From positions 1,714,641 to 1,778,640 of the forward strand of contig OX422194.1 of NCBI GenBank assembly GCA_949130485.1: a stretch of 64,000 nt of DNA. Direction: 5' to 3'. A program made the translations under genes and the position numbers. Shown here piece by piece: positions 1,014 to 60,626 of the stretch; the stretch's first letter is position 1; each line of letters opens with the position of its first letter. A model generated the notes under the pieces. The model saw nothing but the letters and a program-made list of their open reading frames with translations. It searched no databases and was not told the origin of the DNA. The stretch comes from Agelas oroides (lineage: Eukaryota; Porifera; Demospongiae; Agelasida; Agelasidae).

Positions 1014-4000
1014 TCACTGGGTGATGACAGAGAAGGGGCTTCCAGCAAGGTGCTGTCCGTGCCACTTGACACTGATGATGGTCTCGCCTGGCTCAGGGAT
1101 GTCGTACGATACGCTGAAGGTGTAGTCACCGTTGTGCTTCACAGAGACAAATTCCACAGGAACGTAAGCACCCGAGGCACCAACTTCGAGCAGGCCACTC
1201 CCACCAGCATCTTTACAATCTACCGTGAAACTCCCAGGGTTTTCAAGTCCACTGACGATGCATTTTGAAGCATCTGGAGGTGGGCGTTCGCAGAGTACCT
1301 CAAACGGACTTCCAGGTATTTCTTTGTCTGCAAATTTGAGATGGACATGGTAGATGCCAGGCCTTGGCGCAATGTACGTGACATTGAAGAGCCCCTGAGA
1401 CGACTCCTTACAGTTGATTTCACAATCAGCAGGGCCAGAAATCTCCAGACCTAGGGCTCCTTCTCCTGCTTTTGTAGCATCCACAGTAAACTGAGCTTCT
1501 TCTTGGGCAATTGCCTTCTCCAGCCCAGGTCCAAATGCTCGCACAGCTTCAGGATCACATACTTCAACAAAGAATGGGCTTCCTTCCACCTCTTGACCGC
1601 TGAACTGGACATTCACGACGTAATTTCCAGCCTTGTCTGGTTTGTATTTGACCAACCACTTGTTAGGCTCAATTTCGGCAACAACGGTGTCAAGTTTCTC
1701 CCCATCGGGTGTTTGGATCTCGGTACTGAGGTCTCCAGGGCCAGCTTCAGTGGCGTCCACCGTGAATTCCGTCTCCTCACCAGCGAGGATTCCTGATTCA
1801 ATGCCAGGTCCTTCGATTTTTACCTTTGAGGGGTCGGACACGGGTACGGTCTTCTTGTCTCCGACTGGGAACCCACCATATGTTACTTGAACTTCAGTTT
1901 CAACAGCAGAGTGTGGGGTGTAGTTGATCTGGTAGTGGTTGTCGTCTACTTGTGTGACAAAAGACTCGACTGGCAATGCACCTTCTTCTAATGGCTGGAA
2001 TTCAATTCCAACTTCACCAGGGCCTGCATTTTCTGTAAATACATCAATAACGTTGTTCCCTTCTTTGATGGCACACTCCAAGCCAGGACCAGCAAGTTGG
2101 ACTGCATCAGGGTTGCAGATTGGTACTTGGAAGGGCGAACCTGGAATCTCTTCATCTGCAAACTTGGCTTCCAGGCAGTAGTATCCTGGCTCTACTGGTG
2201 TGTATTCCCCAGCAAGCACACCTTCTTTCTCAGTTGGTACAAGCTCAACAGGAAGTGCTTTACCATTTGGGTCTGTGATTTGGACTTCTACTGGAGCTGG
2301 ACCTGAGTTGCTGGTGTCGACGATTACTTGAGCTGGCTGTCCTGTTCTTGCACCCGCACCTGTAACCCCTGAGCCTGAAGCGATAACCTTGGTTGGATCA
2401 ATGACAGGAATGCTGAAGACAGAACCAGGTACATCGTCACCTGCGAATTTGACATCAAGTTTGTACTCTCCTGCCGTGTTTGGTGCAAATGTGAGCGTTG
2501 CTGTACCATCGTCATGATCATCGCAGTCAATTTCACATTGTGAGGGGCCGGTAAGCGAGAGAGAGAGACCACCACTTCCAGCTTCTGTTGTATCGACTTC
2601 CACCACAAGAGAGTCGTTCACCTTTCCGCCATCAAGGCCGGCTCCAGTGATTTTTACTTTGCTTGCATCTGCAAGGGAGAACTTCAGTGGACTCTCTTTC
2701 ACCTTATTGCCTGAGTATGTTACATCAAGTTGATAAGGTCCTGCCTTCTCTGGACTGTATGTCACCTGATAAACATCCTCTTCTGTGGGCTTAATCTCGA
2801 CAGCCTTGGCCTCTCCGTCTGGGGTGTAGACGGTAGCTTCTAAATTTCCAGGACCAGCTTCTGTGCAGTCTACTCCCCACTCAAGTGGATCCACGAATGA
2901 GATGATGGGGGCCTCTTCTTCAGCTTCCCCTGTTTTCTTTGCACCTGGCCCGGTAATCTTCACTTTGGTTGGATCGGTGACATTGACTTTGAATGGTGAT
3001 GCAGGGATAGAAGCATCGGCAAAGTACACATTGATGTTGTAGGTGCCAACTTTGCGGGGATTGTACACAGCGTTGTAAGTATCATCATTGTTGCTGGTGA
3101 TTTGTGGCTTAGCTGCTGCACGAATTGAACCTGCCCTTTGACGACCAAGACCACCCACTGGAGATCTGGTTGGACGGTGACTTGGGGATGTTGTGGGGGA
3201 GATTGGAGTTGGTGCTCGCCCGTGCCAGTATGGGCCATCCACTGCAACATCCACAGTCCCAGATCCAGCCGCTCTTGTGTCAATGATGAAATCACCTGCA
3301 TCACCAACCTTGACCCCATCGCATTCAAGGCCAGCACCATACGCACGGACTTTCGTGGCATCTGTCTCTGGCTCAAAGACTGGAGTGAAGGGACTACCTG
3401 GGATTGCCTCTTCTGCAAACTGGATATTAATCTTGTACTCACCAGGCTCCACAGGCAAATACTTAACTGTAGCCATACCATTGTCGTGGTCTTCAACATC
3501 AACCTGGGCCTCACAAGGCCCTTCAATCTGGAGGTTGAGGGCACCTTCTCCAGCGGTTTTCATGTCCAGGGTGAACTCTGTCCAGTCACCACAAATGCCT
3601 CCCTCCAAGCCCTGGCCGTAGGCTTTGACACGTGATGGGTCGGTCTTCCAATTGACGTGGACATCAAACGGGCTGTCTGGGATGGGCTCATCAGCAAAGT
3701 TGATTTCAATCTTGTAATCTCCAGCTTCGTCTGGGTCGACGTAGTATCGGTACTTCCTCAGACCCTCTTGCACTTGCTCTTCTTCCACGTTCTCCCCTCC
3801 TCCTGGACCATGGACTACCACCTGAGGCTCTCCTTCACCAGCTTTGCTGTAATCAACAAAGAACTCCGCCCACATGTCAGTGGTAAGACCGTCCTCCAGC
3901 CCTGGACCGTAAGCTTTGACTGCGCTTGCGTCTGTTGTGGGGCAAACTTTTACATGGAATGGGCTTTCAGGGATGGACACTCCTTCGTACTGTATATCTA

Positions 4001-5801: not shown

Positions 5802-8800
5802 CTGCAGTGGTATATATGGTAGAGGGGCACTGAGATGAGCAACAGTATTCTACCTCTCATACTTAGGCCTAGATGCCACAGAAAGGGGGAGGAAAGTTGA
5901 GCTAAGACATTTCAACATCTTGGGAATATTCATTGTCCCAATATTGTACAATACATCCTGTACAAATGTCCATATATCGAGTATCATAAATTATCATACG
6001 TGTATATGAATGTACAAGAGTTAATGGGGAAGCCTTGTTAGGTACTGCAGTTAATAATAGCTTTTACTACAAGTCACACATGAATCCAAAGCCATGCATC
6101 TGAACATGCAATGAAATGTCTGGCTCCTCCCTTGAGGGTAAAGCTTTTATAAGAAGCCACAAAAACTCTACTTCAGATAAATTTGCAGCACAAAATCCTG
6201 ATCTCTAAAGCCTTCTACTTCAGGTCTTGTAGCTAAGTAGCAGTAAACTTTGTTTTCCTAAAGCCTACTAACAAACCTTCTACCTGCGTATAGCACTGAA
6301 CTCTAAAGTGTTTGAGCCAAGGTAAACCTGCAGCACTAACCTCTTTGAGCATCTTGGGGTGCGGTTACTTTGCTCGGAATGTACAAGAGTTAATGGGGAA
6401 GCCTTGTTAGGTACTGCAGTTAATAATAGCTTTTACTACAAGTCAAAGCCATGCATCTGAACATGCAATGAAATCGGAATGAACACAGTTTTCTCTTGTT
6501 GAACACATTCTTTCTGAATTTGTCCATGACCTGGCTAGAATTAGTATACAGCATCTGGAACAGCCCAATCTAGCGATCTACACACAATCCCAATACCGTA
6601 AACTCTGGTTATTAAGCGCACCTTGCTATTAGGCGCATATTATTTATTAGGCACATGCCGTCTTCCTGGTACATGGCATCATTTATTTAGCGCATGTGCA
6701 AAATAAATAAAGTACACGATAGTGGCAAGAGATCGAGTGAATCCACGGCATCAAGAGCACGCAGAAAAAACTCGATGGTCATCCTGAAGTCAACCAAAGA
6801 AGAGCTACACAGGTTTTATCCGCTTCTGGCTAACACGAAGCTCGCAAGCCACACCCTTTGCGGCTTATGAGAGATTTCTAGCCTCCCTTTCTCGGGACCC
6901 ACGCATGGAGCCCCGCATGAATACACGATGGAACCAAACTACACTCTCTTTGAGGAGGATGGGATCTTCGATGATGCTCGCCAGGTGAGCATGTCTTACA
7001 ATCTACTGAACAGCGCCAGAGAGCTACGTATCATGTCAATACCTGTTGGGCGTGGCTTTAATTATTGAATCCTTTATTTAGCGCTTATCCTCTATTAGGC
7101 GCATGTTTGCTTACCACTTACGCTCATAAGCGCATGTGCTTATTAACCAGAGTCAACGGTATGTCAATACACACATTGTCCAAGCTCTAGAACAAAGCAT
7201 TGTGTGTTGTACATGTTGTCAAGGAATAAATTGAATTGGCCAAGCTAGCAATACTTGCCAGCAGTATTTAGGTCTAGCCTCGAACCTAGCTTTCTGTTCC
7301 AGATTTTCTTTCACAGCTTTGGAGAAATCTTTCTCCAAAGCTGTGAGACAAAATCTGGAACAGAAAGCCTGGGTTTAAGGCTAATTTAGGCTTGTTGCAG
7401 GAAATCTCTAAAAGCAATAGAATGCACATATGTGTTATGAAGACCATGTGTACTCATTGGCCAGCGCTTGAACCCAAGCAGCTTTATTATGACAGCTTGA
7501 TCCGAAAGTCAGCGCAATGGTGATTTACCTCTGGTTTCTCAAAGTGAGACAAGGTCATCATAGAGAGCAGAGGACAGCAAAGTCTCATGCCCAGACCTCA
7601 TCTAGCCTTGTACCCAGGCCATTCATTATAGAACGGCCTGGGTACGAGGCTAGACCTCATCCAGTGCGGATTACTTTCAGTATCACACCCAACAAAGTGG
7701 GATTGGTTTGGATATGGAAACAAGACTTGGGAAGACGAAGCTCGGTTTAAGTTAAGGCTATGCATGACAAATAAGCTATGCAGCTGTAATAGGAAATTCC
7801 CATTGCTAGTGTCATGATTGAGTGTGAAGCTTAGCATGTGTGTGGAGCACTTCATCCATTGTAGCTCTCTGGGTTGGATAAACGGCAGCTACGTAGTCAG
7901 CTAAGGAATGCTTTTGGCTACTGTCCAGTCAGTACACAAGAAACCTACTGCCTGACAACTGCACTCGACAATCTTTCACTCAGCTGGGAGGTGTGTACAT
8001 CAAGGTAGTCTCAGATGCTAATTGAAGGAATGCATTTCATTGTAGTTTGTACATGCGTTCTTCGTCACTGTAGTTTGTACATGTGTTCTTCGTCACTGTA
8101 GTTTGTACATGCGTTCTTCGTCACTGTAGTTTGTACATGCGTTCTTCGTCACTGTAGTTTGTACATGCGTTCTTCGTCACTGTAGTTTGTACATGCGTTC
8201 TTCGTCACTATACAGCATGCATTTGTGAGACGACAGTCAGTTGTTCCTATCCACATGGAAGTACATGCATAGCTACGTGGCTCACGGGGTATGTGCTCTA
8301 CAGAGCTCTAGTTCGTACATGCATTCTTCGAGCAGTAAGTTTTAAACATTCGAGATTCTAGTGCTTGGACAGACACTGCAAGAAAAAGTTCAAGATCACT
8401 TGGACCCAGTGGTGTAGCCAGGTCATTGGTATTGGCTGGGCACCTGCAGTACGCTAGCCCATTAGCCTCTAGGGAGTCTAACAACACTAGCGCTCGCGCA
8501 TGCTTCGCGTGAGATCACGTTACATGAGCGGGACGAACATGGTGCTTTGGCTGGGCACGGCCTTCGCTACGCCACTGCTTGGACCCATCTTCCCTTCTGT
8601 CTACCTAGGTAGACATTGATGCCATTCACATGACTAGATCTCTCAGGCCTCCCCCTCCATTTTGCACGGTAAGTGATCAAAAGCTGTATGGTGGTAAACG
8701 TCTGGGAACCAGGCTAACATCAAGAATGTCATACACACTTTCAAAACCACTTGTAATAAAACTACTAGACCTACACATCCTTAAATTAATTATACTACGA

Positions 8801-22100: not shown

Positions 22101-25100
22101 ACCTTCACTCTCTCTCTGTGCTCTCATGATTTCTTCATCTGACTCATCTGGAGCGTCATAACTTGTGTGCTACGATGGAGAGAATCATAACTTTTCTGAC
22201 TCACTTGTTATAGACTGCAAATTTGCATATTTTTCCAGAAGTTTTAGGCTAATAAATACTAGTTTCAGAAGCTACAGGGACAAAGGCTGCTTACTTGGGG
22301 ATTGAACTGGTTAATTTGTTGATCTGACACACTTCATGTTCAAACTTTAGGCAACCAGACAAATGCAACAGAATGTAGTTTTCAATACAAGATCATCCCT
22401 TGTAGCTTAGAAACCTAGACACAGCTAGCTACGTAGGCAATATACCTGCTGTCTTCTAGACATTTGTTTGGCAGCAGAAGCATTTGCATCTCCTTCCTCC
22501 ATGTCTGACAAATCCTCATTGTCTTCATCTTCCTCTGGGGGAGCTAGGGGGAAGAAGAGAGAGGGGGGGGAGAAGGGAGAGGGTAAGGAGAAGGGGGATA
22601 AGGGAGAGGGTGGGAAGAAGGGGGAGAAGGGGGAGAAGGAATAAGAAGAGGGAGGGTCATAGAAGGAATGAATTGAAAGAGCATGATATGGAAGAAGGAG
22701 AGGTGGGTTTCAAGGCATGGTTGCAACACATATTGCAGAGAGGCCATACCAAATTGCTACTCTCTCACATCTGGAAACCAAACACTAAAGTTTGCATTCA
22801 CCTGACTGTTCATCTCTCTCCTCTCCTTCCCCCTCTTCTCTGCCACCCTGGCCAAGCTGACCTTCTCTCTCCACCACGATAGATTTCAATCTACATACAA
22901 AGAATACTTAAATCTGAACAACAGCTTCAGCTACATGTGCACAAAGAGTCATGATAGAGTTTGGTACCAAAACTGCAGCATGCTCACCCAAAATAGCCTA
23001 GCTGGAAACAAGGCTAATGGACAATTGCTCTACAACACCATGAGACATGCATACCCCTCACAGCAGTAACAAAGAATGTGTGTGTCCCACAATACATGCA
23101 CTATATGGAAATTTTGCTTGTATCAGAATATGTGACTGCACAGAAAATGTGCAGTCACATATTCTGACACAAGCAAAATTTCCATATAGTGCATGTATTG
23201 TGGGACACACACATTCAGTGCTTCGAATGTAGTAACAGATCGAATATGCAATGGAGTTCCATTGCATATTTGATCTGTTACTACATTTGAAGCACTGAAC
23301 CCCTAAAATTCTGGGCAGATCTTGTATGTGGTTCTAAGCACACATGAGCTCCATCCTTAATGATAGTTTAGCAGAACAGCACTCCAAACATGGTGATGCA
23401 ATTGAAATGCATAATGAAGTCAATTTCTACCAAAGACTGCAACACATGTATCTTCATTCGACTATTACATTAGCAGTGACCGCATGTGTATGATATGGTG
23501 AGTAGCTTGTGTACACTTGTCTCAGTGTTCTAGTATAGGCATGCATGTACAAACCTTCGTTCCCTGATAGTCTTGATCTCCTTGTTGATGGCTGACACCA
23601 GTTTCTTGACAAAGGTCTTCTCGACGTAGCCCAAGACCTGGCTTGCAGTCACCACAAACTCCTCCTAACAGGTGGCACAGACAGCATGCCATCATAAGAA
23701 CATGTGTGATGTTATGATGCGAAAAACAGTGGTCCACCTCATTAACATCAATCATGTCTTTCGTTCCAACTGAAAATCTACCGTGGATTTATTTCTCAAT
23801 CTTTCAGCACACGCTATATATAAGTGAAAGAAGTTGTTTGACTCTTATACAAGTCACAATGATACCAAAACACAATCTTTCCTACTGAGCTCACAGAATA
23901 GTACTGATGGGGTAGAAAGGTCATTTTGATTCTGTAGAGGCGATATCGGTGACCTTTGCCCTCTCTACACAAGGACTCCCAAACCTCCACTTTTTCCAGC
24001 ACCTGTAAATTACATAGATGTCAGAAAAAAGATCAGACAGGCAGGAAAACATCCATATAAGGCAAAACGCTAACATCCAGAAAATTCACCTGTGAGAGAC
24101 AGACCCTGGTGAAGAGTTTCTTAAGCTTCTCCCCCTCCTCCCTGGCCCGAGGGTGGGGCAGGAGGGGGACATCCATTGCTGGTGTCTTGATGTTAGCGCT
24201 AGCCGTCATCAAGATCTCTCTCAGCCTTGGTATTCCCAGGGTGACGTTCATCTCTCCACGTCCGGCAAAGTGGAAGGTGTTGAGGGTCATCTGGGTGGAG
24301 GGCTCACCAACAGACTGTGGGAGAAATCAAGCAAACACAAAGTTACCTGCAGCACTTTCGTCTTTAAGAAATGGCTTCCCATGGGAGAAGAGAGATAAAA
24401 GAAAACCTTTATAGAACTGGAGGTGTGGATGGACAAACAACTGTGAAAGTATTTGACCAGGATGTTTCATTGTTTTAGTCCTCATTCCCAAACCATGTGA
24501 TCATGTGGCCTGGGAATAAGGTGAGAGCCACAAACTACTATATACTCCACAATTAAAACAAGACTGACCCAAAACTATGCAGACAGAGAGAGAGAGAGAG
24601 GCATCAACAACCGAGGAGTCTGGGAGGAAGTTATCACAGTTCTGACCTGAGCAGCAAGCAGCCCTACAGCTTCACCAGGGTCTGCCAATGCCCTCAGGCA
24701 CTTGAACTGCACTAGATTCTGGAACTTCTCTGGAGCCAACTTCAGTGATCTACAAGGATGGAGAGGGGGGAAGATATACTAGCAACCTAATAACGTGTCT
24801 GAAATGTGACTGTTGAATTAATATACCGTATTTCTTCGAATAGACGCCGCCCTCAAATAGTAGCTGCACATTGGAAGCTTTGAGTAAAATAAATACTGCC
24901 CTCAAATGGCATCCGCTGCTAGTATATGCGGCACATGCGAATAGTTTCTGACGACAATCAAGGAAATAAACACCACCCTTGAATAGTAGCCACCCTCGAA
25001 TAGTAGCCGCACAAAAATGAGCAGTGAAAAGAAAGAGCCGCAGCATCCGATCAAGGAAATATGGTATACATATTTGCAAGTAAATATATAGAGCAAGGTA

Positions 25101-41760: not shown

Positions 41761-42764
41761 ATTTCTGGTCAGTATGTCGGTGCATAGTCACTGGCTGTCT
41801 ACCCCACACCACTATCACAAAACTTACCCACACTACATACAGCTTGTCCAGAACAGCCTCAGAATGTCAGATCAGTTAACACCACCTCTCGTAGCATCAG
41901 TCTAGTGTGGGAGGAGCCCACAGCAACAATGCTCCCATTATGGGGTACAGGGTCATGTACTGGCAGCCAGCCTTTCTTGATGCAAGCAGTGCATGGTGTG
42001 CAAGCTGTCAACAGTACAGTTGAGATGGCTGACATCACTGGACTCCACCCTGGTGTCACCTACAACTTCACACCATTGTAGCCTTCAACGAGATTGGCAA
42101 CAGTATTCCCAGCGACATGGTTTCAGTGACAACAGTAGAGGAAGGTATGCTAGTCAACAGTTTCATTCAGGAGCTTTAGTCCTTTACCTCCAGGGTTAGG
42201 GTTTTATCATACACAATCTATAGGAGTTTACTAACTACAGTGTTGAAGTGACGGCAGTGACTGGGGGGGGGGGGAAGGGCCTTACAGCACTCCCATCGTT
42301 GTAGTCACTGACCAAGGCAGTTAGTTACATATTGTAAAGCCAACAAGTGCACTACAATCAATGAACTAGCTATATCTACTGGTTAGAAGGCAGGCCTAAA
42401 TGTGTACAAGTTTGTTAAACAACCATTACTATGATTCCCTATGCAGAAGCAGGAGAAGTATCCACACCTCCACCAGTGGATGAGAGAGACCTAACTCCTT
42501 TCTCAGCTGTAGTCAGGTGGAACCCCCCAACAGATTCTAATGGCGTGATCCTATGCTATACTGTCAACTATGTAGCAGTAGCCAGCACTTTATTTACAAG
42601 ACATGGGGTGTCACAGGAGGCAGACCGGTGGAGCCAGTGTGCAGTGTATTCTGGGAGGACAGAGGAACATGAATCGTAACATGACAGTTGATGGAACACA
42701 GACTTCAGCCACACCGACAGAGCTCAGTGAGTACATGGGTTACTGTTGATGTAAGATAAAATCC

Positions 42765-42850
42765 ACAGTGCCAGGTCTTATAATATTTGGAAGGTCCTGG
42801 GTTTGATTCCAGCTGGATCGTTGTGTGTTTTTTTTTTCTTTCTCCCTAAA
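42765..42850 (+). mobile_element. tRNA-derived SINE fragment
   Basis: TCCTGGGTTTGATTCCAGCT (B box and T arm) is followed by GGATCGTTG and a T10 run with TCTTTCTCCCT. The T arm and acceptor resemble the tRNA-Thr-like sequence at 9285-9361. Confidence 0.5.
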
Positions 42851-43282
42851 GCTTACATCAACGTTATTCCTGCTTCAGAACAAATGATTACACTTGTGTT
42901 ACTTGACTGTCATTGTACAACCATGGACATTTCATTTAGCTCCTGGCACTGTGTATGAGTTCCAGTTTCAGGCTGAAACTGCAGTCGGTGAGGGGCCTTT
43001 TTCAAGTTCAAGACCATTTACAACCTCCAAAGATGGTATGATTATGATTGTAGCATACAATTATGACTGGTTTTCTGATTTCAACATGTCACAACAATAA
43101 TTGCTACCTCTAGTTCCGACAGAGCCTCGTGGGCTAACTCAACTGCACTTGAGTCACTTGGGACCACCCTCTCTGTGACTACGGCATTAGAAGAGGATGC
43201 ACTGTAAGTCTGCAGAACTGAACAAGTAGCATACAAGATTTTTTGTAATAAACTTTATCTTGTGCATATACTTCTTGTGCAG

Positions 43283-46200
43283 GTCACACATGACCCTTTA
43301 CCAGCTCCACTTGATCCCCCTGGAGAACAGGACATGCCCAGAAGCCCATACAACCTAACTGCAGGGGGCACACACCTTGTTATCACAGACTTGACTCTTA
43401 ATACCAACTACAACATAACTGTTTGTGCATTCACAAGTGTAGGTTGTGGGCCTCTGTCCAGTACAGTGAATCAAACAGATGAAGATGGTAAGAGTGTCTT
43501 GAAGTTTGCTTTTGGTATTTTATATGACTACATACACTTTCTGAATAGCTCCCCAGGTAGTCACCAATCTCGCAATCACCTCATCAAGAAACACTAACAA
43601 CAATACTGTAACTATCCGAATCACGTGGGCTCGCCCATCTCTGCACAATGGATCGTTCAACTATACGCTCATGTACTCTGCTGACCAAACACCACCCTAT
43701 CCTAACCAGAGAAGACAGAGTGCAACACTAGGTACAGTGATGATCGATGGGAGTCAGGAAGAGTATGTAGTTCCAAGTGGACTGCCTTGCGCTGACAACC
43801 AGGTGACAATATATGCCTTCAACATCAAACGTGGTCTACGAGGCCCCAGTGAAATGACAACACACAAGTCTTTAGCAATTGGTGAGTTTGACATGAACGG
43901 ACAGAGTTAATGGATACGCATGGCTTAATACATAGTATTGTTTATCTCATCATCTACAGAACCTACTGCAGTGACTAACTTGATGGCAGTTGCTACCAGT
44001 AACCAGTCCATCCAAGTGTCCTGGCATCTTCCACTCTATCCCAATGGACCTATATTGTACTATGATCTCTTCTACAGAGCATCAGATACTCCACAACAGC
44101 CTCCCAACATTGTCTGTGATAGCAGCTATACTAAGATGATGGTCATGAATGTTACTAACTATGAAATCACTGGCTTAACACCATATACAAACTATACCAT
44201 TCAAGTCCATGCTATTGGTGAGGAGGACCTCCTTGGGGCTATTGACAAAGACGTACTTCAGCGTACTAACAGTACTACCCAGGATATAGTCACAGCCACT
44301 GCTCCAACTGCAGCACCTTCTACCAGCACCATCAACAGCCATCTCCCATCCCCGTCTCAAGTGTATACTGGCCATGTGATGTGAGTTCTTTAGCAGGAGA
44401 ATGTGGGGGTACCCTAGCCTCTCTCCCAAGCATTCATTCTACCATACTGCAACTATTATAACCACTAACTAGCTATAGTGCAATATCTCTTAAGCATGAA
44501 CAATCAGTGAACCACGTCCCTAAAAAGCAGACTTAGATGTTATGCAAAGTCACCCACTGTGCTGGGGTCACCAGGAGATGGGGACTGCATGCATGTATTA
44601 CATGCATCCAAGAGTTTATCCTAACCCCTCTCCCAGGCATTCATCTACCATACTGCTACCATTAAAGCCACTAGCTAGCTATAGGTTATATTTTAAGCAT
44701 GCATGTAGGGTATGTATCCTAGCCTCTCATCCATGCATCCATCTACTAATGTATACTGCTATCCTTAATGTCAATGAGTAGCTATACTTAAAACTACCTA
44801 TAGATAAGAAGCGGCAACATCTCTTAAGCATTAAATGTTCTTTCAACAGATTCTATACTGTAGTGGTTGTCCGCAGTGAGACTCTAGCAGCAAACCAGGC
44901 TGTGTACAATGATGCTGGACCCTACACCAATGGTGCCACCCACTACATTGCTGCAGCCTGGGCAAGGGAGAATATTTCCACGGTTCCAGAGTCTTACACT
45001 GTGGGAGATGGCTCCACAACTGTGGCAAATACGGTAGTGTATGGAAATGCTGAGCTGAACTCCAATACAAGATATGGGATATTCATCAGAATTGATATTG
45101 AATCAGATGCTGGGAATGTGGTAGGTTGTTAATAGTTATGTCGGCATTGGCATCATAAAAATTAGACAGGTATGATATAATTTTGTTACTCATAGTTACT
45201 GTTAGCCTAGTTCCCAGGCCCCTGCCCAGCTTTTTGTCACTTCACTTTTTAATACTGCATGCAGTATTAAAAAAACTAAACATGGCACACCATTTTACAG
45301 GCAATACAACATCACTTTTCCAACTCCTCCTGGCTGGTGACTTTAGCTGTGTGGAGTGGGTGGTAAGTTCTTACCATCGCTTAATCTAGTTTTACCATGG
45401 CTTAACGATCATGTCATCAATCACCTCTTGTAGGGAGAGAGGATAGAGGAAAAGAGAAATCGTATCATCACTGCCGTGGTGGAAAACACTGAACAACTCT
45501 GCCACTGTGGGTTTACAGCAGGACACATTGACCATGCTGTCAGTGGGTTTCAATGCTCTGAAAACCAGCACAACCAGGTCGTCTTTTGCTCCAAGCTGTA
45601 TGGCACCGTGATCACAAATGCATCCACACTAACCAACTATATCCATCAGTGGACATCCAGTGGCATCTCGATTGCTGTATTGGGACTGATTCTGGACGTA
45701 GACCCCACATGTCCAGTTCACATTTCATCTTTCAGTGATCCTGAGTGTGCAATCACCACATCTCCCGGCTCTCCTGGAACACAGTCTGTTACAGTGTTAC
45801 CTATCCACCCTACCATAGGAAATTTGTTTGCTGGAGTGACAGCGGGAATTGTTTTCTTTGTCATAGCTGTGGTAGTGATCATGATTGTTGTCATTGTCAT
45901 TTTGGTGATTAGACAGCTGAGAACAGCGTCGTACAATCTGGGAAATCTCAGTATAGGGTAAGCTCTTTTGAGAGTCATGTTGACAAACTGCACTTCATCA
46001 AATTTGCAAGAATTTTCAGTATATGATGGCAAAATTTCAGTCTTCTTAGTCTGCAATCTGAGAGGTTCTATAATTCCTACTATAAGTAGAGCAACATCAA
46101 TGTAGCTTTGGATCAGGTTAACAAATGCTTAAATGTCTCAGTCATGTAGTTGCAACACCTTCCACCCGTTTAACCTGGGTAGCACAATCCAATGCTATAG

Positions 46201-46573
46201 CACTGTAGTTCTATAGTGAGAATGAAAACATCTAATGGATTGAATGTGGTAAGCCTACTGAGTACCACCCCCAAGTATTTAGATTGAACACAGCCAGGTT
46301 CTCAAATCAACCTCTCTCCCATAACTATATCAACACTATTCATTCATAGTGGACTATGAATAAGCTATGATGTTGCAATCTTCTCTCTTGATCCACAGAA
46401 CTGACAACCCAAGGTATTCTGCAACAAATGGAGGCCTTGAGAAGCAAGCTGTCAGTGGTGATCATAGTTATGAATGCATAGCAATCCATCCTCATAATCA
46501 TGAAGATCATTGTAATCCTAAAGGTCATTCTCATCTCTGTCCTCTAAAGTCTCGCAATCAGTCTGGTTTCTGA
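43283..46573 (+). CDS. Ig/FN3 receptor-like protein, intact 3' part (FN3, TM, short tail)
   Basis: A cell-surface receptor lacking a catalytic domain. Exons 43283-43487, 43549-43881, 43960-44380, 44850-45120, 45434-45957 and 46399-46573 join in frame. They encode half of one FN3 (NTNYNITVCAFTSVGCGPLS), two full FN3 domains (TIRITWARPSLHNGSFNYTL; IQVSWHLPLYPNGPILYYDL), a Thr/Ser-rich spacer, a module starting FYTVVVVRSETLAANQ with YGNAELNSNTRYGIF, a cysteine-containing membrane-proximal domain (VVFCSKLYGTVITNASTL), a transmembrane helix (GIVFFVIAVVVIMIVVIVIL, about 45846-45905) and a short tail of about 70 aa, ending NQSGF before TGA. The FYTVVVV module resembles the juxtamembrane ectodomain of LAR/PTPmu-type receptors. 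It has no kinase or phosphatase domain. Confidence 0.75.
44405..44840. repeat. Imperfect tandem block of about 140 bp in an intron
   Basis: Three related segments each carry CCTAGCCTCTC, CATTCATCTACCATACTGCT and CACTAGCTAGCTATAG followed by CTTAAGCAT. They start near 44410, 44615 and 44720. Confidence 0.65.
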
Positions 46574-48623: not shown

Positions 48624-48702
48624 ATGGACGCCGTTCATAAGTTAGCTGCCGTTTTCTTCTTAGTGTACTGGAGCTCGCAGGTACCGGAGGCTCAAGGCCA
48701 GG
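48624..48702 (+). CDS. Phosphatase exon 1: signal peptide
   Basis: It encodes [20 protein letters not shown] and PEAQGQ, with a hydrophobic core and a likely cleavage near EAQG. It ends in phase 1 at G|GTAAGC. A paralogous exon is at 60545-60626. Confidence 0.85.
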
Positions 48703-51700
48703 GTAAGCTCAGTACCCTTACGTACCATTCGTGTTAGCTACTGCATGTGCGCTGTGCACACATTTTCGTTTAGTTTCACGGTTGCAGCTATGTCGCTACG
48801 TACATCCGTATCCACCTGCAGGTGTTTATCTGCAAATCAATGGAACAAGAGTTCCAAACCATGGTTTCGTGGGCCGAGGGGAGCTCAGAGTCAGCAATCG
48901 TAACAGATCTATTGACAACCCACTGCTCTGTGTAACTCCAGACAATACCAACTGCTGCTCGAGTGCAGAAACTGGAGGAGGTGCTCTGCTAGGAAACTGG
49001 TACTTTCCCAATGGAACAGAGGTCCCACCTGACAGTACAGGATGGAACTTCTACATAACCAAGGGGCCTGGTGTGGTACGTCTGCACCGTCGTACTGGTG
49101 GTGTGTCAGGGATCTATCGCTGTGAGATACCTGACCAGAGTGGCATCAACCAGATCCTTTATGTTGGACTATATGCTATTTCTAGTATAACAAGTGGTAA
49201 GCAAAACGACATATCACTGCCAGTACCGTGATCTCCCGAAAGTAGGCCCACCGTCGACAATAAGCCCACCCCCCTTTTCTGAATGACGTTTTGCTTTTCT
49301 CTCGAAAGTACGCCCACCTATTTAAGTCGCAGTATATATGCTGTTACATTAAGCAAGAAGCAACAAGCAGCACTGTGCAAGGGGAGGGACTAACATACGA
49401 AGGCAGACACCATTTGCTGTTATTGCATAAGCAAGCGCATGACAAAAGAGGCCACTGCAATCGTACATAAACTATAGGGCCAGACTAACTGCATGTGAGG
49501 TGGGCGTATTTTCAAGAGAAATATCACAACTCTCGAAAATATGCCCACCCTCTCTTTGTGGAGCTACTTAAGTTCATCGCCCATGGACATATTTTCGAGA
49601 GATTACTGTACATGATGAAAACACTACCCTTGCTTTGTTCCCATGTCTTACCTGTGCATGGTTTCAGTAGACCAGGATTTTCTACCAGTATGTACATTTC
49701 TAAAAAAATCGTGTATTCAAAACTTTTGCTTTAGCAATTTGCATCTTTCAACTGTTGTCTGTTCTATAGCGCATAATAAAATATGTTCCAATTATCCATC
49801 ATCTGAGTATGAGAATACTGCATCAAAACTTTGCATAAATATATTTACCTACCAGTTAGCAACCATAACCAACGTCTAGTTAGTTACTATTGAAACTGGA
49901 CTCACAACTATACATGGGCTGTTGTTTTGTTGTATTTTTGCCATCAGTACATGCTTTATGTATACACCATGTTCTACGTGCATGATAACTATCTATGCAG
50001 GTCAAATACTTCTGCAACATGGCATTGAATTCCAGTTACTGCCACTGGAGCCGATTACTGACCCACCTACATTCACTCTAACCTGTGTCACCACTGGAGG
50101 CCCTCCCACTAATGTCACTTGGACAAGAGACAACATTGGGATAGATTACCAGAGCAAAAGCAACTTTACATTCTCTCGTACAGTGACAAATCTTACAACT
50201 AGTACCTACAATAACACTCTGACTGTCACTGGAAGATATCCTGGTCAATACAACATCACAGCTTGGAACAGAAACACAGTGCTATATAAAGACAGTCAGT
50301 TCGCTAGTTCTGTTCTTTTAGTAAAAGGTAAGCACTATATTGTATAGATATGTGAAACATTGAATTATTGGAATTCAACACTGTATTATGTCAAGCTAAG
50401 ATGATGGAGCTATTGGAAAACAACAAAGTTAATAGTAAAGTTAATAGATCTATTCACCTGCAGCTGCTGCCCCGCCCACCCACCTCACTGCTGTGCAAGG
50501 GTCTGATTCTACCGCTGTCAATGTCTCCTGGACTGCACCACTCTCAGGAGACAGTGTGACTGGGTACCGGATATACTATCAGACAGAGGGGGATGAAGGG
50601 AGTGTGGATGTTGGTGACACTACAACTCAACATGCACTAACTGGTCTTTGTGGTGGAATGTGCTACTCTATTTATTTAGTGGCTCTGTCTGTACAACTTC
50701 CAAGCCCAGTGGTTGGACCAGTAGTGATCAAATTAGGTGGTGAGATTGCATGATACACAGTACATCATTGTGTTATACAATACATAATAATGCACTGTAA
50801 CTATAATTGGCTGTTATGCTTAACAAATGCACATGATTCACAGAATAGCTACTCTTTAGTGTCTTTGTGTCTGACTAGCTATACAGATTTATAACTGATC
50901 TCAATTGTTACTTTAACACAGGGATTGATGATGAACCTATTTGCACCAATGGCACGAACAGTCCTTCCACATCCAGTTCTGGTGCCACAAGCGCTCCTTC
51001 CACGACAAGCCCTTCCACAAGCAACTCTTCAACAATGAGTCCTTTCACAACTGACTCTGTTACTACAACTAGTCCTTCCACAACTAGCCCTGATGCCACC
51101 AGCCCTGATGCCACCAGCCCTGATGCCACCAGCCCTGATGCCACTCCAGACAGCACTGGAGTCCTCACTGGAGCTGTGGTTGCAGGTGTTGTTGCTACTG
51201 CTGTCCTGGTGGGACTATTGGTGCTGGTGATGTGCATCTGCCTCATCTTCCTGAGGAGGTATGTGTAATCAATTTCACATTGGAACTGAGACTGGTACAT
51301 TAGAATTATAGATTCCTTGCAGTAATACACTTGTACATTGTCAATTAATTCTTAGTTTGTCTATAATGTGATAACTCCACACTATAACTGTCCGTATGCC
51401 ATGTTTACTTATCAACCATTCAGGGGTAAGTCTAAACAGAAAACTTCATCATCACTTCAAGAATTAAAAGTGGTATCCTCTGAGGAAGCAACTGAAGCTG
51501 TGTCCACACACAAAGCCGCTGGAGGCAAGCCTATCACAAATACTGTGATGGAGACCAAAGAGAAAACTGAAAATCAAACTGAAGCTCAAATAAAAGTTGA
51601 GAAAGATATGAAAGATATAGCTGTTGGTAAGAAGTATTACTCCTTTAATTCTGTGCAAACTTTAAAGATAATTATAAACTCTCATTTTCTCAGTTATTGA

Positions 51701-54700
51701 GGAATTTCCCCAAGACACAATGCATGTGACTGAGGGTGAAAGTGTGCTCTTGCACGTGAAGGTTACTGGTGCACCAAAACCAACCCTGGTGTGGTACTTT
51801 GGAGGTAAAGAGCTGCGACCTGACTACTCCACTGATGTGGCGGAGGAGGATGGGAGTGTATCCATACCCTCAGCAGAGACCAGACATGCTGGAGTGTACA
51901 AGCTGGTAGCCACAAACAAAGCTGGTAGTGTGGAGAAGGAGGTCAAGCTGTTTGTCCACAATGAGGAGGAGCACATACCTGGTGTTGATGACCAGAAGGA
52001 GCTCAGGCCAGTCCCAGTGGCCGAGTTTGGGAAGTATGTGGAAGAGCATCATGCCAATGGCAATAAACAGTTTGGAAAACAGTACAAGGTGAGTGGTGTA
52101 GATGGAAAAGTTCCAACCTGCTCTTTGTAGATACTGCAAATGGCATTCCTGATAGCATGGTGTTTGTATTGATCTCTCATGTCTATAGTGTTTGTCTAAG
52201 GGTGGAGATGAGCACTCTGTGGCTGTTGGTACCAAACCAGAAAACATGTCACGCAACAAATTCAAGAACATCATTGTCTGTATGTCTGGAGTTCAGTAGT
52301 AATCCTTTGTTATTTGCTTGCAAAAATTATTCCCTTAGCTCCACTAACTTGTTAGCTCCATTAACTTGTTAGCTCCATTAACTTGTTAGCTCCATTAAGA
52401 AGAGTGCCAAATATAAACAGTACAAATGCTAAATAGCTCACTGAGTGGCTGAACAACAGGGTGCAATAGCTCACTGATATGGGCTAAGCACGTGTGCACA
52501 AGTGTGATAGCTTTGTGGTTTGTCAGTGCATGTACGTAACAGAAATTTGCTGTCAACTATATAATGTCTGCAAACTTGTATACTACATTAATCTGCATGT
52601 TTATTAGTTATGGCAAGTATGATTAACAATTGTTTATACAACTTAGTGAAAGGCCATTTATGGTTAATCCCAAGTTGTGCTCAAAACATGCTATTGAATA
52701 CCATCACATTATGAATACTATACACTTGCATGCTATCCCATTCTTACATAGATGATGATAGCCGTGTCACTCTGAAACCACTACCCGGACATGATGACTG
52801 TCAACATGACTATATAAATGCATCCTATGTTGATGTAAGCACTTCCAGTTAATATAAACATAGATATTGTGGCATGTTGATCATTCAAAATCCTCACTTT
52901 TGTAGGGTTACTCCCTTCCCCGTAAATTCATTGCCACACAAGGTAAGCAATGATGCCATCTGTCAGGACATGAATATAAATACATGAATACTGGTGCTGC
53001 GTAGACAAACTGATGCAACATGATAATATTTCTCATTCCAAACCAATCTACAGTTGAATGGCATGGGAGGCTACTAATGTGCATATACATAACTTCTATG
53101 CTTTCCTGATAGCATGTAATGTACACTGCATGTAAACTCAGAAATTGAACATTTTTGTATATGTATACTCACGGTGTGAATGACTGTCATGCTCTACCCA
53201 CTCCCCAGCCCCCCTCCAAAACACTGTCATTGATTTCTGGAGGTTGGTCTGGCAAGAAAAGTGTCCCTCCATTGTGATGCTGACCAATCTTGTGGAGGGA
53301 GGTAACGTAAAATGTCTGCAGTACTGGCCTGACTCAGACAGCAAGAGCTATGGTCCCTTTGAGGTCACCATCACTGACAAGCAGATATTTGCAGACTATT
53401 TGATCCGAGTGTTCCAAGTTGAAGTAAGCATGGTTTCAAAGTTTGCAGCGTATTAAATTAATACCAATCAGTTGCCTATGGGCATGGTATAATTGGAAAT
53501 ACACTTTGATCATAGAATAACAAAATATTCACTCTTGAATTGACATTGTCTGAACACTAACTTCTTTATACATGATCCATGCACATACAGCTGTCTGGCA
53601 GCAAGGATCCTCCTCTGAAAGTGACACAGTTCCACTTCACTGCCTGGCCTGACCATGGAGTACCAGACTATGCTACTCCTATCCTAGCTTTTCACAGGAG
53701 GGTGAAATCTCAGCATGACTCAGTAAAGGGACCTCTTCTGGTTCACTGCAGGTATACAAAGTGGCTGCAAAAGCAAAAGCAATTTTAATCAACACACATG
53801 TGCACACACATACACACACACACACAGTGCTGGCGTGGGTCGCACTGGTACATTCATCACCATTGACAATGTTCTGGAACAAGTGGAGAAGGAGGGAGTA
53901 GTGGATATTGCTGGGAGAGTAAGCAAGATACGACAACAGAGGATGAATATGGTTCAAACTGTGGTAAGTGTGTGTTTGGGTGAGGGGGGAGGAGCTGTAT
54001 ACACATATACACACATGTGTGCACACTGTATATGTCATAGGCAGTGGAACGGGGGGGGGGGGGGGCACTGGGGATATGTGCCCCCACAAAATCTTACAGC
54101 TGCAGGCGCGTTATTCAGGTGTTCGTGGTCATCCGATCAGTGAAGAGGTCACATACGTGGTGGCCTATTTAGCTTCTCTAAGCCCACACCGGCCAGCAAG
54201 CGAACTCAAGATGAACAAGTGTCTGTGTCATTAGTCTAGATTCGGACTGTGACAATATTGGCGAGGTGAGTGAGGACAAAATATACAGAAGCCACAGGGA
54301 TGAGGCTGATACCTTGACCCAATTGATGCCCCAAGCTATCAAGCATGTATGGACTATAGAAGTTCTCGTCAGAGTAGTAGCTAGTTTCGATCCAAAAATG
54401 GTCTCAGAAGCAATCTTAGAGCATAAAATTGTTAGTCGCCCTAGTTGCTGCGTGGTTGTAGTCATGTGCCCCCCAATCTCAAATGCCTTCCACCACCTAT
54501 GTATGTATGGCATATTTGTCAAAGGTTGTCTCCAGCACCACCAACTCCATCACTACAGGAGCAGTATATCTTCATCCATGATGCTATACTGGAGTCAGTA
54601 ACCTGTGGTGACACCCAGATTGTGGCTAGTGACCTCCGAGATGCTCTGGAGAAAATTCAGATGGGTCCCCAGAGTGGTGCATCTGGGTTGGTGTCACAGT

Positions 54701-57172
54701 TTCAGGTGAAGCATTTATGATTTGGGGTGGGGGGCTTCAATAAGATTTAGGGGGGATCAAAGTGATATCATATTTATGGGGCCGGGGGGGGGGGGGGGGG
54801 GGGGGGACACATTAGGAAGTAGATCATGACAGTATAATTTCTAGAGGTTAACATTGAGTAAATCTTATGATTTGGGGTGGGGGGCTTCAATAAGATTTAG
54901 GGGGGATCAAAGTGATATTATATTTACGGGGCCAGGGGGGGGGGACACATTAGGAAGTAGATCATATTTCATTTTTAGTGGTTGACTAATAACAATGAAC
55001 TATCACTCTGAAGAGTGAGTCAATCACTGACTGTAATACTATCCACACAGGTTCTAGACCAAGTGACTCTCAAGCCAGGCGATGCTTGCATGGATTGTGC
55101 TTTCCGATTTGGTGAAAAGAACAGAAACATGGACTACCTTCCTGGTAAGCCAACAGAGTTCACTTGAATGACAGATCAGTAACTTGGACAAAGAGCTGCT
55201 GAGCAATCCATTATTACACAATGTGTTTCTCAAATATTTAGCTGACAGCTGCCGTGTTATTCTGAAAGGTGAATACCCAGATTACATCAATGCTGTCTTT
55301 GTCAATGTAAGCATAGTTAACAGTAGCCAAAAATTACCTGCTGCACAATTAAGGAAATGTGTATTCACCTCAACTTATGTACAGGGCTACAAGCAGCAGA
55401 AGGCTTTCATCATAGCCCAGGGTCCCATGGAGTCCACATGCAGAGACTTCTGGAAGATGGTCCATGACAGGCAGTGTGGGGCTATTGTCATGCTCTCCAG
55501 GCTCAGTGAAGATGGAAAGGTGGGTGAACTGGGTTTCATTTGATGACGGGTTTCTTTAATGTTCAGTTGCAAATGGTAATGAGGTGACCCTTACGCTCAG
55601 CATGGTCAATCCTTGAGAGAGCATACACACTTCAAGCATGGAAATGTTGAACACTCTATTTCTGGCGAATACATTACTATATATCACTATTGAAAATCTC
55701 TATTATCGCTACTACATATAGTGGATGCTATTTTTTTATAAGTATAATTATAGTATACTTGTCCAATTCTATTTACAGGAGGTGTGCTACCAGTATTGGC
55801 CCAGCAGTGGCGACCAGCAGTATGGGGAATACAGTGTTGACCTACTGGGAGAGGAGGAGCTGGAGGGACGTGTTCTCAGGACACTCAACATCACTCACTC
55901 CAAAGTAGAGTTACTGCATGAGTTCAAGATTACAACATGATGGCCATACATATCTGACTCTGTTGAACTTGGTTGTTGTTAAACAATGCCAAGTTGTTCT
56001 CTGTCTTTAACATTGTGACACTGTTTGTATAATATCGGTAACACAACAAGCAATTGAACATCACTGCAATATTGTTATACTGAGCACATGTATTACAATA
56101 CTCGGTCAAATCATAGCTCAGCCTTATGTCAATATTTTGCTCTGTATCTGCCATGGCAATGTCTTCCTGTATTTCTGCACTTGTGCAACAGCATATGGTT
56201 CTAGTGTGATATTTTGTGACTACATATCTTTTTCTTGCAGTCAGGGAAGACTCACCAGGTAACACAGTTCCATGTTGTGAACTGGGAGCCTGATGGAAGA
56301 TGCTATAACCTGAATGCTATCACTGATGTGATTAAGGAAGCGACCAAGGTACAGATGAGGACAGGCAACTACCCCATTGTGGTGCACTGCAGGTGAGGTG
56401 ACTTTAACTAACCCCTCCACTTTCAACACAATTAATGCATACATATATACATATATATCTATTCTACCACACTCCCTAAACTGTAGCACTAGCTGTAAGT
56501 GAATAGTTGTCCATTTAACACTGGGTAAATTACTACGTATGCTGAGGTATAGGCCAGAACTGTTCATTGTTCTTCATGAAGCCAGACTGCATAACTAGAC
56601 ATTCACTATACACCATTCTTCCTCCACTGCAGTGACACAGTGAGTCGCTCTGGGATGTTCTGTGCTATAGCAACCACCATTGAGCGCTGCAAGACAGAGG
56701 GAGTGGTGGACATCTTCCAGGTGGTGAAGGCTCTCCGAGTACAGAAACCTGGAGCCATCCTCAATGTGGTGAGTACACAGCAGAGCTGGTCTCAAGCTTG
56801 GGGACTATCTCTATTAGGTCCTGATAGGACATGTATGCAATTCACTGATAAAGATAAAACAATAGAATTTCATGTAGCTAGAAGAGATGTGCTGGTATTA
56901 ACTTTGTTTCTACATATTAGGGGCATAACTCTTAAAGATGTGTACATCATTATCACATGACTCTCAAGTACCTATAATTGTACTCCTACCCTACTAGAAG
57001 TGACCAATGATAAAGAGATATGAAACTACACATGTATGTGAAAATTCCTCAATCAGTCACAACTCATGTTTTATTCAATCGTCTTTCTCAGGAGCAATTT
57101 GAGATGGTCTTTGAAGCTGTGCTTGCCTACTTGGATTCTTTCGACACTTATGCCAACTTCCAGAATATATAG
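48624..57172 (+). CDS. Receptor-type tyrosine phosphatase with a cytosolic Ig domain
   Basis: A membrane phosphatase removing phosphate from tyrosines. Twenty-one exons join perfectly in frame (3,648 bases, 1,215 aa): 48624-48702, 48822-49196, 50001-50327, 50464-50736, 50922-51258, 51424-51626, 51694-52088, 52189-52279, 52752-52834, 52906-52942, 53209-53423, 53591-53751, 53828-53963, 54559-54705, 55051-55144, 55242-55306, 55385-55519, 55779-55904, 56241-56392, 56633-56768, 57092-57172. The order is signal peptide (1-26), two Ig-like domains, one FN3, Ser/Thr-rich stalk, transmembrane helix (about 436-461), charged linker, cytosolic I-set Ig (about 531-627), PTP D1 (about 640-945) and PTP D2 (about 954-1215). 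D1 has WPDHGVP (D826) and [10 protein letters not shown] (C858, R864), so it should be active. D2 has [10 protein letters not shown] (C1143, R1149) and NWEPDG, so it is probably regulatory. The start ATG is chosen because it opens a good signal peptide with a phase-1 donor. Confidence 0.93.
48822..50327 (+). CDS. Phosphatase exons 2-3: two extracellular Ig-like domains
   Basis: Exon 2 (48822-49196) reads [32 protein letters not shown] and [13 protein letters not shown], the Ig style found in many sponge receptors. Exon 3 (50001-50327) reads [20 protein letters not shown] and [13 protein letters not shown], where the second Ig cysteine is absent. Both are phase 1-1 modules. Several N-glycosylation sites (NGT, NVT, NFT, NLT, NIT) are present. 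Confidence 0.88.
49224..49611. mobile_element. MITE in phosphatase intron 2
   Basis: The ends GTACCGTGATCTCCCGAAA and (complement of the right end) GTACAGTAATCTCTCGAAA are matched inverted repeats. The interior repeats CGAAAGTAGGCCCACC-type words near both ends. The size is about 388 bp with no frame. Confidence 0.8.
50464..50736 (+). CDS. Phosphatase exon 4: FN3 domain
   Basis: A single phase 1-1 exon encodes a whole fibronectin type III domain, with [40 protein letters not shown] and the terminal VVIKL. Confidence 0.9.
50922..51258 (+). CDS. Phosphatase exon 5: mucin-like stalk and membrane helix
   Basis: The stalk is Ser/Thr/Pro-rich, with [13 protein letters not shown] and four SPDAT-type repeats (51086-51145), and is probably O-glycosylated. 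The membrane helix [20 protein letters not shown] is followed by the stop-transfer IFLRR. Confidence 0.9.
51086..51145 (+). repeat. 15-bp coding repeat (SPDAT) x4
   Basis: Four near-identical copies of AGCCCTGATGCCACC lie in the stalk exon. The repeat is in frame, so copy number can vary without frameshift. Confidence 0.93.
51694..52088 (+). CDS. Phosphatase exon 7: cytosolic I-set Ig domain
   Basis: Placed after the membrane helix and before PTP D1, it encodes [36 protein letters not shown] and [17 protein letters not shown]. This is the titin/palladin-like I-set pattern with the core Trp and the DxGxY-like motif (HAGVYKL). The usual two cysteines are absent, as expected for a cytosolic Ig. 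The exon also holds the juxtamembrane wedge region [20 protein letters not shown]. Confidence 0.9.
52189..54705 (+). CDS. Phosphatase exons 8-14: PTP domain D1 (active)
   Basis: The landmarks occur in order: [96 protein letters not shown] and [20 protein letters not shown]. All catalytic elements are present. The cysteine loop is split by an intron after HC(S). A mobile insert (54039-54520) enlarges the intron before exon 14. Confidence 0.94.
52337..52400. repeat. 17-bp tandem repeat, about 4 copies
   Basis: Units of TTAGCTCCATTAACTTG lie in the intron after phosphatase exon 8. Confidence 0.9.
54036..54522. mobile_element. Inserted TIR element of about 480 bp in phosphatase intron 13
   Basis: The left end CATAGGCAGTGGAACGGGGG and the right end (complement CATAGGTGGTGGAAGGCATT) face each other. 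G14-15 and GTGCCCCC motifs occur near both ends, as in the element at 15895-16066. Confidence 0.7.
54712..54972. repeat. Direct duplication with long G runs
   Basis: A block of about 115 bp (TTATGATTTGGGGTGGGGGG ... GACACATTAGGAAGTAGATC) occurs at 54716-54829 and 54867-54967. Copy 1 has about 22 consecutive G, copy 2 about 9. Confidence 0.9.
55051..57172 (+). CDS. Phosphatase exons 15-21: PTP domain D2 (degenerate)
   Basis: It contains [93 protein letters not shown] and the terminal [17 protein letters not shown]. Cys and Arg of CX5R remain, but two P-loop glycines are Thr and Ser, and the WPD loop is altered to WEPDG. Confidence 0.93.
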
Positions 57173-58555
57173 CTAAATAGAAAGTTTGTGTTCTTAGCTA
57201 TATATATCTACCAGTATTATTAAACACAACTGTAGGTGTAGTCTGACTTGTATAGACTCTTAGCTTTTACTAGTTTTGCCAAAAATTGTATGTGCACTTC
57301 AAGTTTGATTAATGCTCAAATGCTAATCCTGTTCATCTGTATATAACTTCCTTGCATGCAGAGATAGCCAGTGAGACCTGGGTTAGCTAGTCTATTAGTA
57401 AGTTAATAGACTAGCTTCTAGATTTCACTAGTTTTGCCATACATAATGGTTTGCATGCAGAGCAGCCAATCAGATCAGGGTTAGGAGTATGCATGAGCAT
57501 ATGTGCAGACAAAGAAGGTAGTATTATGGTTAAGCTGAACAAGCACTGCAGATTAGCTATATGAGCAATCATCAGGCCCATGCATAGCCACATGATGACT
57601 GCTTATACACAACATACATTTAATAGAGGCAGAGAGCAGCCTGCCTTGTCTGTCATATTGTGTATAGCTTTAATACCAAGCCTACTGACGCTAGCCAGGA
57701 GGCAGACAGACTGAGCCACCAGGAAATAGTTTATTCTGTCACAAAGTTACAATTGCACTGTTATAAAATGGATGTAACATTGGATGGGCTTTGTATATTT
57801 TTCTGTCATTCCTACCATGTTTGCATACTTTTTTGGCATGGTGCTATATACATCTACTTCTTTACACATTTCAGAGCTGGTTGCTCAGAAAATTTTGCAG
57901 TGGATGCATTTTCGCGTATTTTACGAGATGTTTTGCACTTTTCAGAATGTTTTTATTCTTACATTGAGTTGCACTGGCACCAACATCCATACTACTCTCA
58001 TCTCCCTGTAGTTAGTACATGAGATTGAGTCTGTGTGTAATTTAAACATGGTATGTAGTCTGGTAGTCTAGGGCACTGGTTGTACATAACAAATTGTGTA
58101 AGTTACATTTCCATGCAGATAATGTACTGAGTTCAAATGTTTCTGCCATTTAGTCCTAATACAAAGGTTATATTGTTGGTTGTCCATAAAATTTGAAATC
58201 ATTTCATGCTTGTGCAAGAATACCTGGTTTCTTTATGTGTGTTTTGAATTTGATTGGTCCAAGACACACATGTGAAACAACCAACAAATTTACAATTTGG
58301 TTGGCACTTTTATATACAAAACAACTAAAAGTACTAGTTATCTTGTGCATTTGTGAACAGATTTTAATTTTGTGCAGACAACCAACATGAGTTGCTCAGG
58401 TTATGCCGCTGTTTAGTCACACTCCCAGGCCCTGCCAGCTTTCCATTACTTACAGTAAAGGGGAAGCTATAGCTAGACAGGGCCTGCAAGCAAGCTGGTG
58501 GAGCCTGGGAGTGAGACTAGTATCTGTCCATGTTCCATGAAATCCCACTCACCTA
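57173..58555. other. Downstream flank of the phosphatase
   Basis: No gene is seen. Short duplicated words (CACTAGTTTTGCC, GCATGCAGAG...GCCA) occur at about 57265-57390 and 57415-57485 around an inverted repeat GCTAGTCTATTA/TAATAGACTAGC (57386-57414). A foldback element is at 58412-58523. Confidence 0.6.
58412..58523. mobile_element. Foldback MITE, TAGCCT...CCCAGGCC family
   Basis: The ends TTTAGTCACACTCCCAGGC and CCTGGGAGTGAGACTAG are inverted repeats about 110 bp apart. Inner GCCCTGCCAGCTTTCC and complement-like words also pair. Confidence 0.75.
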
Positions 58556-58716
58556 CATTGTCATTGATTTCTGGAGGTTGGTCTGGCATTGTGAGTGGTA
58601 AAATGTCTGCAGTACTGGCCAGACACAGACAGCAAGAGTTATGGTCCCTTTGAGGTCACTGTCACTGACAAGCAGATGTATTTCATCCAAGTTAAAGTAA
58701 GCATGGTTTCAAAGTG
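58556..58716 (+). pseudogene. Fossil of a PTP D1 exon
   Basis: It is nearly identical to phosphatase exon 11 (53220-53445): CATTGATTTCTGGAGGTTGG, GTAAAATGTCTGCAGTACTG, CCCTTTGAGGTCACTGTCAC and the donor GTAAGCATGGTTTCAAAGT. Two internal deletions are present, after TGGTCTGGCA and after CAAGCAGAT. It is a remnant of a tandem duplication. Confidence 0.9.
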
Positions 58717-60544: not shown

Positions 60545-60626
60545 ATGAACGCAGACAAGATAGCTGCTGCTGTTTTGCTCCTGGTATGTTGTGGTTTACA
60601 GGTGAAGGCAGGTGTGCAAGACCAGG
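60545..60626 (+). CDS. Signal-peptide exon of a second receptor, paralogous to the phosphatase exon 1
   Basis: The ATG opens MNADKIAAAVLLLVCCGLQV and KAGVQDQ, and the exon ends with G|GTAAGC in phase 1, exactly as exon 1 of the phosphatase (…AQGQ, G|GTAAGC). No second exon is recognisable in the remaining 3.4 kb. The gene either continues beyond the window across a long intron or is an orphan after partial duplication. Confidence 0.6.

Follow-up and report, generated by a model that had tools for sequence, protein, structure and literature searches.

A predicted cytosolic immunoglobulin domain joined to the D1 wedge in an expanded family of tandem receptor tyrosine phosphatases

Receptor-type protein tyrosine phosphatases (PTPs) are, to our knowledge, normally thought to use immunoglobulin (Ig) domains only for extracellular ligands. 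A gene in the window, the whole 64-kb stretch of DNA analysed here, raises the question of whether such a receptor can also carry an Ig domain within the cytosol and what the domain would do there. The gene, as rebuilt from the sequence, runs from 48624 to 57172 on the plus strand, and its 21 exons encode 1215 residues with no internal stop and with GT-AG borders at every intron. The donors of exon 4 (gtggtg) and exon 18 (gtagag) look weak, and an alternative exon 4 donor (gtgaga) 3 bases downstream would add one codon if used.

Exon 1 (48624..48702) encodes a likely signal peptide, called by eye, with a hydropathy below 1.2 over 19 residues; it is homologous to the first exon of a paralog, L051, with 89% identity. 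Exon 2 (48822..49196) encodes an extracellular, cysteine-bearing region that is Ig-like by eye only and, taken alone, yields no Pfam hit up to E 0.1. The one clear Ig domain of the ectodomain is encoded by exon 3 (50001..50327; Pfam Ig_3, E 3.6e-7 for the exon taken alone) and its one fibronectin type III (FN3) domain by exon 4 (50464..50736; Pfam fn3, E 1.6e-10). Exon 5 (50922..51258) encodes a Ser/Thr/Pro stalk followed by the sole strong transmembrane (TM) segment, with IFLRR at its end; in a 19-residue hydropathy scan this segment peaks at 3.11, and the next-highest peak is 1.65. In the gene model, exon 6 (51424..51626) then supplies a charged juxtamembrane linker. Exon 7 (51694..52088) encodes an I-set Ig domain (residues 537-619), a linker and the start of the wedge of the first PTP domain, D1 (near residue 638), as placed by Pfam, alignment and a structure model. 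Pfam and alignment to solved PTPs assign exons 8-14 (52189..54705) to D1 and exons 15-21 (55051..57172) to the second domain, D2. When the whole protein is compared with Pfam, I-set is matched in two stretches, FN3 in one and Y_phosphatase in two (E 4.8e-152).

By hydropathy and sequence, the product has an ectodomain and a single TM segment ahead of its PTP domains. Since the ectodomain and the PTP domains lie on either side of this one segment, the Ig domain of exon 7 would sit in the cytosol. Residues 27-430 contain 11 potential N-glycosylation sites and residues 463-1215 contain four, none of them in exon 7. The initial annotation had observed an Ig-encoding exon between the TM segment and D1 and had read from it the order TM, cysteine-free Ig, PTP, PTP; the exon is where it was said to be, and Pfam, hydropathy and the structure model support that order for this gene. 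Almost certainly, the encoded order is a likely signal peptide, the Ig- and FN3-bearing ectodomain, a stalk, the TM segment, a charged tether, a cysteine-free I-set Ig domain, a short linker, the D1 wedge and D2.

Exon 7 gives a significant I-set profile match, and its structure model shows an Ig sandwich, in agreement with the earlier call of a full I-set fold. The missing B-F cysteine pair claimed at the same time is borne out as well, and neither cysteine is found at any of the 25 family loci described below. The B-F disulphide is usual but not obligatory in I-set Ig domains. In alignment A1, which holds 20 of the 25 loci (L017 and L025, on the opposite strand, and L031-L033, with short matches, are left out), two other cysteines, in columns 11 and 82, are common to 14 of the 16 rows from contigs 1 and 18; one is near the first strand and the other near the last, and the two might face each other. 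The best sequence and fold matches of the domain include cytosolic Ig domains of titin, obscurin-like, myomesin and myosin light chain kinase (MLCK). This likeness favours the earlier suggestion of a cytoskeletal anchor, in which the Ig domain would tie the phosphatase to actin or to a lattice of titin-like or palladin-like proteins. However, extracellular Ig domains of Sidekick, contactin, LAR and PTP delta match the model at similar Z, and therefore the likeness points to no muscle-type partners, which leaves such anchoring quite unlikely in our judgement.

A search of the genome, probably that of a sponge (259 Mb in 141 contigs), with exon 7 identifies at least 25 loci on three contigs at E 8.6e-16 or better, a lower bound because 150 of 211 candidates were scored. 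Next below them are eight weaker Ig matches, at E 1.7e-7 and worse. The match spans nearly the whole exon at 22 loci; at the other three, L031-L033, exon 7 is matched in part only, so that some copies may be damaged. Contig 1 has 15 loci inside 0.6 Mb, contig 18 has six inside 0.1 Mb, and contig 12 has four, three of which, including the exon 7 gene itself, are clustered. A D1 match lies within 1.5 kb downstream of the Ig exon at 24 loci, and at the 25th, L012, D1 exons lie farther downstream (L053). Within 1.5 kb upstream, the hydropathy scan detects a strong TM segment at 18 of the 25 loci and none at the other seven. Both canonical cysteines are kept in all five of the weaker Ig matches examined (L034-L038); they are absent from 25 of 25 family loci, and therefore the loss of the cysteines goes with the Ig-wedge family. 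Searches of viral contigs and prokaryote genome contigs, each queried both with exon 7 itself and with alignment A1, yielded no confirmed relative of the exon.

The recurrence of the fused Ig-wedge exon bears on the reading that the gene model is wrong, with exon 7 skipped or belonging to another transcript and the real protein lacking a cytosolic Ig domain. Against this reading, the same fusion recurs at 25 loci, nearly full-length at 22, and exon 7 encodes the Ig domain and the first part of D1 together. The initial annotation had named transcripts without exon 7 as grounds for giving up its view; judged from the DNA, such skipping would shift the frame, because the exon is 395 nt long, and would remove the start of D1. 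A wrong gene model is thus extremely improbable.

In a tree of a D1 segment, 28 rows from Ig-bearing genes form one clade (support 1.0), from which the four other phosphatases included, L001, L003, L007 and L008, all lacking the Ig, are separate. The tree is midpoint-rooted and keeps 32 of 40 rows (at least 65 of 125 residues each), several of which represent one locus twice, and its sampling is small. Because this tree groups all Ig-bearing rows in one clade, it suggests a single origin of the Ig-bearing phosphatases followed by duplication. Between 6.41 and 6.99 Mb of contig 1 there are 16 D1 exons of one type among the matches listed, 15 of which sit less than 2 kb from an Ig exon. The 16th, L054, lacks an Ig in the 4001 bases covered and its catalytic exon is not in frame, and it looks like a decayed copy.

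The genome and the window show several other features. A dense run of phosphatase exons, at least 10 of one type among the matches listed, occupies 4.87-5.07 Mb of contig 12 (C12 of genome G000), and no exon 7 match is present in that interval. Directly upstream of a contig 1 paralog, L040:336-1814 contains open frames that resemble a retrotransposon integrase by eye. The two tandem paralogs show many partial matches to the exon 5 Ser/Thr/Pro stalk (L051:2595-3285 and L052:764-3301), a pattern that an expansion of the stalk repeat in them would give. In the window, a signal-peptide-like exon at 60545-60626 (MNADKIAAAVLLLVCCGLQVKAGVQDQ) apparently belongs to the next tandem paralog, whose Ig exon is at C12:1784296. 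A D1 exon fragment lies between the tandem genes at 58539-58681 and looks like a relic; its identity is 86% over 28 residues and 65% over a further 17. Upstream of the exon 7 gene, plus-strand frames at 41788-46573 resemble FN3 repeats by eye and include a hydrophobic segment near 45.9 kb, and there is no PTP match between this segment and the gene. Judged by eye, a 1611-residue open frame on the minus strand (1014-5849) resembles filamin repeats, and a second minus-strand frame (24036-24326) resembles the RNA polymerase I large subunit.

Purifying selection acts on exon 7. With L012 and L029 left out of the sets, the ratio of mean dN to mean dS is 0.24 within contig 1, 0.26 within contig 18, 0.30 between contigs 1 and 18 and 0.35 among the three clustered contig 12 copies, and dN/dS exceeds 1 in none of 193 pairs. 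Paralog comparisons covered exons other than 5, 6, 10 and 19-21, and for L052 also other than 1-3. Between the exon 7 gene and its 95% paralog, L051, dN/dS is 0.20 for exon 7, 0.43 for the D1 exons compared, 0.33 for the D2 exons compared and 0.49 for exons 2-4. In the comparison with the 81% paralog, the value for exon 7 is 0.54, and the exon is no more constrained than D1 (0.51, a figure spoiled because exon 8 is misplaced), and therefore the constraint is not uniform. A hypervariable ectodomain was considered and rejected: the values of 0.49 for exons 2-4 (L051) and 0.76 for exon 4 alone (L052) indicate relaxed constraint and never exceed 1.

The spacing on the two sides of the Ig domain differs. 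The stretch that separates the last Ig strand from the wedge helix (columns 87-110 of A1) is 22-24 residues long in all 20 rows. The tether between the TM segment and the Ig domain is about 74 residues long in the exon 7 gene and, by eye in open frames, roughly 45-60 residues for members on contig 18 and about 125 for one on contig 1. The near-constant stretch from Ig to D1, the variable membrane tether and the purifying selection together suggest that the Ig domain and D1 act as a unit.

These observations also allow the cytosolic Ig domain to be weighed as a passive element that folds and binds nothing, either a rigid spacer or a remnant that domain shuffling left behind. In favour of this view, the invariant Ig residues are, in our own reading, mostly ordinary I-set positions with no conserved binding patch evident, and the cysteine-bearing Ig exons of the same genome are a possible source of such a remnant. 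In contrast, the dN/dS of 0.24-0.35 and the near-constant spacing indicate that the fold is maintained, and the sole listed contig 1 D1 exon without a nearby Ig exon looks decayed, so that we consider a passive domain rather unlikely. The nearly fixed distance is also what would be expected if, in line with the dimerisation suggested by the initial annotation, the Ig domain controlled D1 by self-association, an Ig-Ig or Ig-wedge contact dimerising the receptor and blocking or opening the active site. The wedge region has been proposed for inhibitory contacts in some receptor PTPs, in line with such a contact. However, residues 97-101 of the structure model, in the linker, have a pLDDT below 50, so that rigid coupling of Ig and D1 is unsupported by the model, and control by self-association seems improbable.

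The explanation that we favour as a whole, and hold to be probable, is that the gene encodes a tandem receptor PTP of an expanded Ig-wedge family whose cytosolic Ig domain moves with D1 as a docking module. The docking role itself, the likeliest of the functions considered, is put forward tentatively, at somewhat less than even chances. The Ig domain and D1 would move as one unit, and the Ig domain would bind a cytosolic partner (a scaffold, a cytoskeletal protein or a substrate complex) and so position D1, with the tether letting the Ig-D1-D2 unit reach its targets.

The tether itself carries a tyrosine motif of the form V[DE]NxCYxx[IL] (for example, SVDNVCYDKI) in much of the family. A scan of the 1.5 kb upstream of the Ig exon detects one to three copies at 20 of 25 loci: all 15 on contig 1, five of six on contig 18 and none of four on contig 12. 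The motif is thus absent from L029 and from the four contig 12 loci, including the exon 7 gene, and none occurs on the opposite strand of the same tether stretches. The single match in the 64-kb window is intronic and was set aside as a chance match. At L013-L033, apart from L029, the motif is of a type such as SVDN[VI]CYxK[IL], which by its form we take to be ITIM-like, and its tyrosines could be substrates or docking sites. A bolder proposal is that at least 25 loci make up a lineage-specific class in which a cytosolic, disulphide-free Ig domain is an obligate part of the catalytic unit and Ig-D1 reads or holds the receptor's own phosphorylated tail, so that each receptor would contain its own phosphotyrosine switch, placed behind diversified ectodomains that perhaps serve self/non-self or microbe recognition; we regard this as speculative and unlikely.

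By its catalytic domains, the predicted product belongs with the tandem receptor PTPs and is close to PTPRA and PTPRS, both of which align from the wedge at VPVAEF onward. D1 carries the WPD motif (WPDHGVP) and the HCX5R signature. In D2, alignment by eye to solved PTPs reveals neither a WPD motif nor the Q-loop glutamine, and D2 is therefore likely to be inactive. The receptors of the R2A type (LAR, PTPRS and PTPRD) resemble the product in having extracellular Ig and FN3 domains, a single TM segment and the wedge-D1-D2 order, and PTPRS (2fh7) aligns from the wedge through the end of D2 at E 1.9e-142. R2A ectodomains have Ig domains followed by FN3 repeats; in the product, one Ig (exon 3) and one FN3 are recognised, and exon 2 is unmatched in Pfam. 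The Ig domains of R2A receptors are, as far as is known, outside the cell, whereas the exon 7 gene departs from this pattern by adding a cysteine-free I-set domain C-terminal to the TM segment, between it and D1; its D2, apparently without the WPD and Q-loop residues, is a second difference. The best-scoring solved D1-D2 structure is 6uzt (E 1.4e-145), of the R4 type (PTPRA and PTPRE). In R4 receptors, as far as is known, the ectodomain is short and lacks both Ig and FN3, and there is no Ig in the cytosolic part either; the exon 7 gene differs from them in having both an Ig/FN3 ectodomain and a predicted cytosolic Ig.

Cytosolic I-set domains near catalytic domains are known from the titin, twitchin and MLCK/telokin kinases. 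The Ig domain of exon 7 probably shares this cytosolic location, as it falls between the TM segment and the PTP domains, but the enzyme here is a membrane-bound tyrosine phosphatase and not a kinase, and a single Ig domain is present, with an almost constant spacing to the wedge. Among the papers listed in literature searches, no title or abstract opening describes a receptor PTP with a cytosolic Ig domain. A receptor PTP of Geodia cydonium was reportedly described by Mueller and others in Gene in 2001 under a title that puts a catalytic domain first, then an Ig-related domain and an FN3 module, an order that would fit an Ig domain between FN3 and PTP. Since an Ig-related domain is named there, the general statement that Ig domains of receptor PTPs always lie outside may already fail in the literature, and the TM-Ig-PTP-PTP architecture may have been published. 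If the Geodia cydonium domain is cytosolic, the architecture is known, and what is new is the size of the family, its clustering and its constraint. If our reading is true, an intracellular Ig domain that a multigene family keeps at an almost constant distance from the catalytic domain and without the usual disulphide would be another way of steering receptor phosphatases, and the family, with at least 25 natural variants for comparison, offers a testable case of an Ig domain as an intracellular phosphatase adaptor.
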